The translations under genes and the position numbers were made by a program. A stretch of DNA of 10,356 nt from Dactylosporangium sp. AC04546 (GTDB lineage Bacteria > Actinomycetota > Actinomycetes > Mycobacteriales > Micromonosporaceae). How positions within the stretch are numbered: the stretch's first letter is position 1; the number at the start of each line of letters is the position of its first letter. Shown piece after piece: positions 1 through 10,356 of the stretch. The stretch is from contig NZ_JAHYSG010000205.1 of assembly GCF_022095675.1 (NCBI RefSeq), positions 1 to 10,356 of the forward strand. The letters run 5' to 3'. The notes beneath the pieces are model-generated. The model ran no database searches. It was not told the origin of the DNA and was given only the letters and a program-made list of their open reading frames with translations.

Positions 1-252
1 GTTGCCGCGGTCCGCGCCCGCCACACGACCAGCCACGCGCGGCACGCCGCCAGCCGGGTCCGCCACGACGCCGAGTGGCGCCAAGTTGCCGCGGTCCGCG
101 CCCGCCACACGACCAGCCACGCGCGGCACGCCGCCAGCCGGGTCCGCCACGCCGCCAGCAGCGCCCGCCACGACGCCGAGTGGCGCCAGGTTGTCACTGT
201 CCGCGCCTGCCACGCCGCCCGCCGGGTCCGACGCGGTGCTGGGCGGTGCCAG
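1..252 (-). repeat. In-frame coding minisatellite: 21-bp units grouped in 63-, 84- and 105-bp blocks
   Basis: Read on the plus strand, blocks start with gttgccgcggtcc or gttgtc at 1, 85 and 190, and a related sequence starts at 253. Block lengths are 84, 105 and 63 bp, that is 4, 5 and 3 units of 21 bp. Blocks 1 and 2 are nearly identical except for one extra 21-bp unit in block 2 (about 151-171). On the minus strand every unit is one heptad of the MobA-like protein, so gain or loss of units keeps the frame. The array starts right after the native heptad VGPDRDN (residues 61-67), which resembles AGADSDN and AGADRGN in the array, so the native sequence may have seeded it. The left end is cut by the window. 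Confidence 0.9.
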
Positions 253-453
253 GTTGTCGCGGTCCGGGCCTACCACCACGATCTCGGTCGCGGCGGTCGC
301 GGCGGCGGCCAACACGCGGCGCAGCATCGGGACGCCGTCCACCGGGACCATCGGCTTGTCGCGGCCGCCCATCCGGCGCCCGGGACCGCCGGCCAGGATC
401 ACCGCCGCCACGCCGGCGGGCGGGCGGTTGGCCGGAACATTGGCCGACGACAC
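1..453 (-). CDS. mobA: MobA-like molybdenum cofactor nucleotidyltransferase, N-terminal part (runs off window)
   Basis: MobA-family enzymes transfer GMP from GTP to molybdopterin in the cytoplasm. The 151 visible residues begin with a Rossmann-type nucleotidyltransferase core: strand and glycine loop [16 protein letters not shown] (15-30), the conserved D32-K33 pair, VPMLRRVL (41-48) and strand EIVVVGP (57-63). From residue 68 to the edge the protein becomes twelve heptads ([28 protein letters not shown] types), which the family does not have at this point. The catalytic motifs normally found further on lie outside the window. The start is GTG at 453: an in-frame TAG lies four codons upstream, so only this GTG or internal GTGs (411, 402) are possible. 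GGAG abuts the GTG, and a TAGGTT box ends 6 nt upstream, which would suit a leaderless mRNA. It is divergent from fdhD. A related NTP-transferase specificity cannot be excluded, and the repeat may have inactivated the gene. Confidence 0.75.
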
Positions 454-517: not shown

Positions 518-1420
518 ATGGGCCGCGTCACGCAACGGCGGGGAATCGTGCGGGTCAGCGTCGACGGCGGGCAGGTCGTGGCTACCCCCGGCCCCGACAC
601 GCTCGCGGCCGAGGAGCCGCTGGAGATCCGCGTCGGGCCGGCCGGCGGTGCCCGGCCACCGCTCGCGGTCACCATGCGCACCCCCGGCGACGACCTCGAC
701 CTCGCCATCGGCTTCCTGGTCACCGAGGGCGTCATCCGCGACGCCGAGGACGTGCGGACGGCCCAGCTGTGCGCGGGCGACCAGGAGCCGAACACGTACA
801 ACGTCATCGACGTCGCGCTCTCCCCGGGCGTCCCGGCGCCGGTCACCGACCCGAGCCGGAACTTCTACACCACCTCTTCCTGCGGAGTCTGCGGCAAGGC
901 GAGCATCGACGCCGTCCGGACCCGGTCGCGCTTTGAGGTCGCCGCCGACCCGGTCACCGTGGCGCCGGCGGTGCTCGCGGCGCTGCCGGACGCGCTGCGG
1001 CGGCGGCAGCGGGCGTTTGCCACCACGGGCGGGCTGCACGCGGCCGGGCTGTTCACCGCGGGCGGCGAGCTGGTCTGCCTGCGCGAGGACGTGGGCCGGC
1101 ACAACGCCGTCGACAAGGTCGTCGGCTGGGCCGCCCGGCAGGGTCGGCTCCCGCTGGCGGGCCATGTGCTCATGGTCAGCGGGCGGGCCAGCTTCGAGCT
1201 CTGCCAGAAGGCCTGGATGGCCGGCATCCCCGTGCTGGCCGCCGTCTCGGCGCCGAGCACGCTCGCCGTCGACCTGGCCGAAGAGGCGGGCATGACGCTG
1301 GTCGGCTTCCTGCGCGGGCCGTCGTTCAACGCATACGCCGGCGCACAGCGCGTCGCCGGGGCCGTCCCAGGGGAGGCAGCGCCGACGGCGGCACTGCCCG
1401 GTCGAGGATCTCAGCCATGA
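518..1420 (+). CDS. fdhD: FdhD, sulfur carrier protein for formate dehydrogenase
   Basis: FdhD takes persulfide sulfur from a cysteine desulfurase and passes it to the molybdenum bis-pyranopterin cofactor, which is required for an active formate dehydrogenase. The protein has 300 residues, slightly longer than usual. It shows the two cysteines of the family's mobile loop in [12 protein letters not shown] (C122 and C125), the signature [12 protein letters not shown] (189-200), the [17 protein letters not shown] segment, and FNAYAG near the C-terminus. The ATG at 518 is preceded by GGAAGGGA at a suitable distance. The same frame is open to the window edge, but that stretch is the complement of the mobA-like gene and has no FdhD character. 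The tail after YAGAQRV is Ala/Pro-rich and overlaps the convergent DUF4192 gene by 95 bp. The divergent mobA-like gene supports a molybdoenzyme context, although no formate dehydrogenase gene is in view. Confidence 0.95.
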
Positions 1421-9880: not shown

Positions 9881-10356
9881 ATGACGTCCGACCAGCCAAA
9901 CCCGTCCGAAGCGGACGAAGGCGCGGCAGCGGCACCGCCGGTCGGCAAGCCCCCGGCCGTCCGCGCCACCGCGTCGGTGCCGGCCCCGACGTCCCCACCA
10001 CCGTCTGACGCGGACCCGGAGCCACCACGCCCGGGCCCGTTCCCGCCGGCAGGCCCACTGCCACCACGCGTCGCGGGCGCGGGCGTCCCCACTCAGTACG
10101 GCGGCCAGGTCCCCGGCCCGCCGGGCTCCTTCCCCGGCTTCATGCCGGTGCCCCACCAGACCCCCGAGTCGACGCCACCCACCTCAGCCCCTCCGGCGTC
10201 CGCGCCACCGTCTTCGGCCCCACCGGCAGCGGGCGTCTACCCGGCCTCGGCCCCACCGGCGGCAGGCGTCTACCCGGCCTCGGCCCCACCGGCAGCCGGC
10301 GCCCCGTTCGTTCCGCCGCCGTCCTCGGCCCCGCCGGCAGCGGGTGTGTACCCGGG
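9881..10356 (+). CDS. Pro/Ala-rich protein with tandem repeats, N-terminal part (runs off window)
   Basis: 158 codons are visible and open to the window edge. ATG at 9881 has AGGAGG 5 nt upstream. The product begins MTSDQPNPSEADEGAAAAPP and stays Pro/Ala/Gly-rich and apparently unstructured, with no membrane segment yet. From residue 111 there are 11-residue repeats of the type (A/S)SAPPAAGVYP: three in a row at 10211-10309, the third diverging to end in GAPF, then a VPPP spacer and a fourth at 10322-10354. Such N-terminal Pro-rich regions in actinobacteria often precede a membrane helix or an enzymatic domain, but what follows cannot be told from this window. It is separated from the 44-aa gene by a terminator and therefore has its own promoter. 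Confidence 0.75.
   Translation, partial: MTSDQPNPSEADEGAAAAPPVGKPPAVRATASVPAPTSPPPSDADPEPPRPGPFPPAGPLPPRVAGAGVPTQYGGQVPGPPGSFPGFMPVPHQTPESTPPTSAPPASAPPSSAPPAAGVYPASAPPAAGVYPASAPPAAGAPFVPPPSSAPPAAGVYP
10211..10354 (+). repeat. 33-bp coding tandem repeats
   Basis: Units at 10211-10243, 10244-10276 and 10277-10309 are contiguous. A fourth at 10322-10354 follows a 12-bp interruption. All are 33 bp and in frame, encoding Ser-Ala-Pro-Pro-Ala-Ala-Gly-Val-Tyr-Pro variants. Differences are mostly at third codon positions, and the third unit has lost Val-Tyr-Pro. The array may continue beyond the window. Confidence 0.85.

Follow-up and report, generated by a model that had tools for sequence, protein, structure and literature searches.

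A whole-codon minisatellite in a MobA-like gene of Dactylosporangium, probably tolerated in a permissive loop

Introduction

In E. coli, tolA carries repeats of whole-codon units within the gene, and their copy number varies from strain to strain with the reading frame kept (PMC3477136). The tandem repeats of M. tuberculosis offer an actinobacterial parallel, in which changes also involve whole units and the intragenic pe/ppe repeat variants are mostly in frame (17/25; PMC12817950). Both resemble the array that we describe here in a MobA-like gene of Dactylosporangium, and both differ from it: an effect on phenotype has been shown for tolA, and the repeats described as phase-variable in M. tuberculosis lie in promoters, whereas ours is set within the nucleotidyltransferase domain of a small enzyme. 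The problems that tandem repeats pose for assembly and annotation have been reviewed (PMC6868369), and our locus is of that type, with a contig break in the array and annotated starts within it; the review itself treats the subject in general terms.

Among solved structures, those of E. coli MobA (1hjl, 1fr9 and 1e5k) were the top relatives of the family profile, 1hjl covering positions 1-192 of its 195. The Gly-rich N-terminal motif and the later boxes are present in the protein described here too; it differs from E. coli MobA by an insert, at residues about 56-65, that would be at least about 215 aa long if the frame holds. In a search of titles and abstracts, with subscription papers partly outside its scope, we found no literature that dealt with MobA arrays or with Dactylosporangium tandem repeats. 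The array is real, unusually large and in frame where it is read. We interpret it as a coding minisatellite, in frame and prone to slippage, that a permissive loop of the MobA-like enzyme accommodates, neutral rather than regulatory, and put the probability of this reading at roughly 0.7.

Results and discussion

The window, that is, the whole stretch of DNA analysed, is contig C205 (10,356 bp) of a Dactylosporangium draft genome (13.02 Mb in 348 contigs; G000). Positions 1..252 of its minus strand form a 21-bp-based coding minisatellite, delimited by TRF, translation and autocorrelation, that encodes 12 heptads and ends at the contig edge. Block 1 (1..84, minus strand; 84 bp, 28 residues) lies at that edge; block 2 (85..189, minus strand; 105 bp, 35 residues) is block 1 with an additional 21-bp unit, AGAAGGV; block 3 (190..252, minus strand; 63 bp, 21 residues), delimited by TRF and block comparison, is more diverged and adjoins native sequence. 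Blocks 1 and 2 are identical over the first 66/66 bases and then match at 17/18, so that a 21-bp unit and a single base set them apart. Block comparison and minus-strand translation thus bear out the initial annotation, which had described blocks of 84, 105 and 63 bp, 12 uninterrupted heptads and two blocks one unit apart. On the minus strand the heptads directly follow the native heptad VGPDRDN (253..273), and run without a stop as far as the contig edge; base 1 is the contig end, where the array is cut, and it is therefore incomplete in C205.

The top six lags in the autocorrelation of positions 1-252 (lags 5-129) were 84, 105, 63, 21, 42 and 126 bp, all multiples of 21 bp, and for this reason we take the array to be real. 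TRF gave it a score of 305, whereas 500 dinucleotide-preserving shuffles of the same bases reached at most 81. The tandem units are whole codons and more alike than chance, as in a coding minisatellite; a frame-shifting unit length, as in an on/off phase switch, was not found among these 21-bp-based units. A second coding tandem array, with a 33-bp unit encoding SAPPAAGVYPA, lies at 10214-10301, near the other end of C205, so that both ends of the contig are in or beside repeats.

The native part of the gene on the window (253..453, minus strand, GTG start at 453) is the N-terminal half of a MobA-like nucleotidyltransferase, recognised by PF12804 and its Gly-rich motif. It is oriented divergently from fdhD (518..1420, plus strand), the gene for the formate dehydrogenase accessory sulfurtransferase, which is array-free in this genome and scored 364 bits with NF001943 (cut-off 269) as well as matching PF02634. 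With PF12804 (NTP_transf_3/MobA-like; cut-off 27) the window half scored 56.7 bits, the database protein P0001 (see below) 50.0 and the array-free D. sucinum MobA (P0003) 107.8, in agreement with the initial assignment of the gene as MobA-like; IspD and CofC-like control enzymes also passed this domain model, which is not MobA-specific. The NCBIfam MobA cut-offs were missed even by P0003 (TIGR02665, 77.2 of 151.85 bits; NF002741, 79.8 of 179), although its best NCBIfam matches were the MobA models, and since these equivalog cut-offs were missed we keep the name MobA-like. That the gene belongs with MobA we conclude from domain, motifs, fdhD neighbourhood and best match, and MobA-like is the safe name for it.

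The LAGG..RRMGG.DK motif on the window and the GGPVAG and DLP boxes on a second contig, C206, are all present, and residues of these three motifs are important in E. coli MobA. The array occupies loop A, between the strand ending in VVVGP and the VQEEP...GGPVAG box, which by our own count on the alignment corresponds to E. coli MobA residues about 56-65. Since the Gly-rich nucleotide motif precedes loop A and the GGPVAG and DLP boxes follow it, both halves are needed in one chain. In D. sucinum loop A reads VVVVGPDRGDLGPGVLTVQEQPPGGGPVAG, short and array-free, with VGPDRGDL at the position of VGPDRDN. The earlier proposal that the native heptad is the origin of the array is thus plausible, and the array probably grew from this seed.

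The array-free D. sucinum MobA, used as a query against this genome, aligned with both halves of the gene: residues 1-98 matched the window (76% identity) and residues 74-205 the end of C206 (70%). On its minus strand C206 reads, from its very end, GNPAPPGGAAYADRGNPAPPGGAAYADRGNPAPPGG, a unique stretch, VRTVQEEP... and then an intact C-terminal half ending in DCDTDEDLRRVHE and a stop codon. Its terminal array has a 42-bp unit (TRF score 218), with the same DRGN core as in the window at a 14-aa spacing. C205 and C206 both end in GTTGCCG, and most likely they carry one gene that the draft assembly split inside its array. Extension to the left, as proposed in the initial annotation, thus yielded further units and the C-terminal half from C206, and left the middle of the array unread.

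P0001 (262 aa), which comes from a separate contig of 13,083,175 bases, matches the C206 part with 100% identity. It has five YADRGN units and further repeat-like sequence before them, more units than C206, which indicates that the draft assembly is without part of the array. If the frame holds, the insert comprises at least 215 aa, namely 84 residues on the window and 131 residues of P0001 before VRTVQEE, a size that is a sum across the unread gap and not one observed sequence. In P0002 (Dactylosporangium sp. NPDC005572) the same VRTVQEE is preceded by 139 residues of another repeat-like sequence (GGEVLPAGGGGEVFAAGDG...), and to judge from its sequence the loop looks as if it had expanded from another seed.

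An alternative is that the gene is decayed or split: a break of frame in the unread part of the array would leave no whole MobA, the species having either lost this step or made two fragments. P0001 and P0002, the two database proteins with an insert in loop A, both begin within the repeat region, as a split gene would predict, and no separate N-terminal half was found for either of them among the 91 matches of about 83-264 aa or the best 120 of 237 matches of about 190-600 aa (8000 candidates scored in each case). Gene callers, however, can misplace starts in repeats, and the TTG codon that follows DRGN within the window array makes it possible that the starts of P0001 and P0002 were misplaced in this way. 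A change of frame has a precedent in G164, a one-contig genome (L227) with two MobA pieces in different frames, which reflects either a true frameshift or an error in the sequence. Against decay, the C205 and C206 parts are both free of stops, the motifs are intact on either side of the array, and no spare mobA copy was seen in this genome: the D. sucinum query matched only the two halves (15/85 candidates scored), and a query with the N-terminal half gave a single match (148/148 candidates scored).

Selection on the gene also weighs against decay. Outside the array, pairwise dN/dS relative to D. sucinum was 0.23 over 53 codons of the N-terminal half, 0.36 over 130 codons of the C-terminal half and 0.33 for both halves together (point estimates). 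For neighbouring genes it was 0.18 (fdhD), 0.20 (GNAT acetyltransferase), 0.39 (DUF4192) and 0.52 (the 84-residue gene after mobA, which we take to be DUF6457). These values speak for function of mobA, and do so short of proving an intact frame. We therefore regard decay, one of the possibilities raised in the initial annotation, as unlikely, with both halves open, motifs intact and dN/dS below 1, though the middle of the array is unread. The dS of mobA relative to D. sucinum (0.52) exceeded that of fdhD (0.19), GNAT (0.19), DUF4192 (0.31) and CofC (0.16), and the gene after mobA (0.33) was also below it; IspD was left out of this comparison (154/221 residues aligned, evidently in the wrong frame).

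Under the reading that we prefer, the array would grow and shrink in whole codons by replication slippage or recombination, the frame would be unbroken through it and the enzyme would still work, bearing a flexible loop that is rich in Ala, Gly and Pro and at least about 215 residues long. The array would persist because the loop tolerates it and not because it regulates the enzyme. If the frame does hold, minisatellites in these GC-rich actinomycetes can enlarge a small enzyme from within its domain, adding roughly the enzyme's own length with the rest under selection. The array also accounts for the broken contig and for the database proteins that apparently start mid-gene.

We analysed MobA across the family. 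It was matched in 193/200 genomes, and at least 30 of the 193 had gained a net 20 aa or more in frame, an approximate count that comprises 27 genomes of other genera, G000, D. aurantiacum (+50) and D. vinaceum (+93); gains are relative to short-loop queries (D. sucinum and G000), and part of them may be ordinary length difference. The count derives from 39 candidate spans chosen by eye (split matches and longest spans) together with G000, G001 and G006, and leaves out the weak matches G088, G117, G127, G147 and G165, as well as G164 with its pieces out of frame. Of 68 loci examined (6 Dactylosporangium, 25 best matches and 37 weak or split ones), which were chosen partly for likely inserts, 21 had an insert of 20 aa or more in the alignment, and inserts of at least 12 aa were present in 39/200 protein rows (194 from the database and 6 of our own).

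Twenty-eight other genomes had a MobA insert of at least 16 aa, the largest being in loop B (around residue 97) in 12 and in loop C (around residue 126) in 16, with 0 in loop A. TRF detected arrays in 17/28 of these inserts, against 4/28 control stretches of the same length from those genes (Fisher p 0.0007), and the period was divisible by three in 16/17. Among the clear arrays are those of G152 (AEHRAA, about nine copies), G186 (GPSQAGT, seven copies) and D. aurantiacum (VPVPPVGG). The remaining 11/28 inserts were not scored as arrays by TRF, among them the 91-aa insert in loop B of D. vinaceum, a complete genome, and on these sequences not every insert is demonstrably a minisatellite. In M. 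rifamycinica an insert lies at a fourth place, after about residue 160. Array units and host loops thus differ from species to species.

A comparison among close relatives, as proposed at the outset, showed variation in unit number outside this species, in a second genus of the family, Micromonospora. A 12-aa unit in loop C is repeated 2, 3, 3, 4, 4 and 5 times in six MobAs (from Micromonospora sp. BL1, M. aurantiaca, three records of M. tulbaghiae and Micromonospora sp. WMMD1219) that are 97.4-99.5% identical over 194 core residues; one record is on a 6.9-Mb contig, and for others, which come from short contigs (the shortest 4.7 kb), the counts may be less safe. Differing little but in unit number (2-5), these proteins are natural material for asking whether the length of such a loop has any effect.

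Such whole-unit variation among nearly identical proteins could also mean that the array is tunable, with unit number setting the activity, stability or partner binding of MobA and thereby adjusting molybdenum-cofactor maturation. There is a precedent in E. coli, where in-frame tolA copy number alters stress tolerance (PMC3477136). The variation of units and loops between species, however, leaves no conserved repeat sequence for partner binding, and the CofC-like enzyme gains inserts too. Because the units are whole codons, a change in copy number alone would leave the gene on, and we found no support for an on/off switch. The tuning or switching of cofactor maturation suggested in the initial annotation is thus improbable, and the best supported of its alternatives is neutral drift within a loop that tolerates it. 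A broader version, in which MobA of the Micromonosporaceae is a repeat-accepting scaffold with fast-changing, disordered arrays arising independently in several surface loops and adjusting the handover of molybdopterin to partner proteins, unit number being a heritable dial for molybdoenzyme activity, strikes us as improbable and highly speculative.

We compared the MobA inserts with those of other enzymes. The CofC-like enzyme (PF01983, 37.9 bits; PF12804, 46.0 bits) had gains of at least 20 aa in 16/174 genomes and IspD in 6/198, both approximate lower bounds; the difference from MobA gave Fisher p 0.08 for the CofC-like enzyme and 1.5e-5 for IspD, shared ancestry being ignored. Outside the genus, identity was mostly 55-62% for the CofC-like enzyme, much like MobA, and about 70-76% in most listed rows for IspD. 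The CofC count is based on 21 spans, with gains measured from coordinates only and the sequences of the inserts unread, and leaves out G008, G039 and G198 (split over contigs), G049 and G164 (out of frame) and several weak matches. The IspD count, from 8 spans in 10 genomes, leaves out G037 (out of frame) and a few dozen weaker matches; the insert in G177 IspD is a clear array. Among the FdhD matches listed, with spans judged by eye, no internal gain of 20 aa was found. MobA as a special target of inserts is weakly supported at best, since the CofC-like rate is comparable, and IspD, with its lower rate, is more conserved. The insert habit seems to follow the loops of moderately conserved enzymes and not molybdenum metabolism. 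The CofC matches split over contigs in the G198, G008 and G039 drafts resemble the mobA case here, and are possibly arrays that broke the assembly.

Wrongly built repeat units at the contig ends could in principle have produced the array, which does lie at such an end, with GTTGCCG shared by both termini, but an artefact is very hard to credit, as P0001 has the C206 units and more on its separate 13.08-Mb contig and the complete genome of D. vinaceum has its 91-aa insert in another MobA loop. An array lay within 150 bp of 5/20 sampled contig starts of G000, against 42/480 interior segments (Fisher p 0.03, the segments being non-independent), which is weak support for contig breaks in arrays as a rule.

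Tandem-array density in G000 was ordinary, at 11.3 per 100 kb compared with 10-19 in 8 genomes of 8 other genera, from samples of 100-400 kb per genome that leave out the D. siamense stretches L188-L189. Two arrays scoring at least 300 with TRF were present in the 400-kb sample of this genome, so such strength is not rare here. Five Dactylosporangium genomes had 11-20 arrays per 100 kb against 10-19 elsewhere, and we reject a genus-wide proliferation of minisatellites. The highest density seen was 28.6 per 100 kb, in the D. aurantiacum sample. In that species (L014) a TITGP-like insert lies close to the N-terminus of FdhD, and an open frame after mobA contains LTSGQRGPYAP-like repeats.
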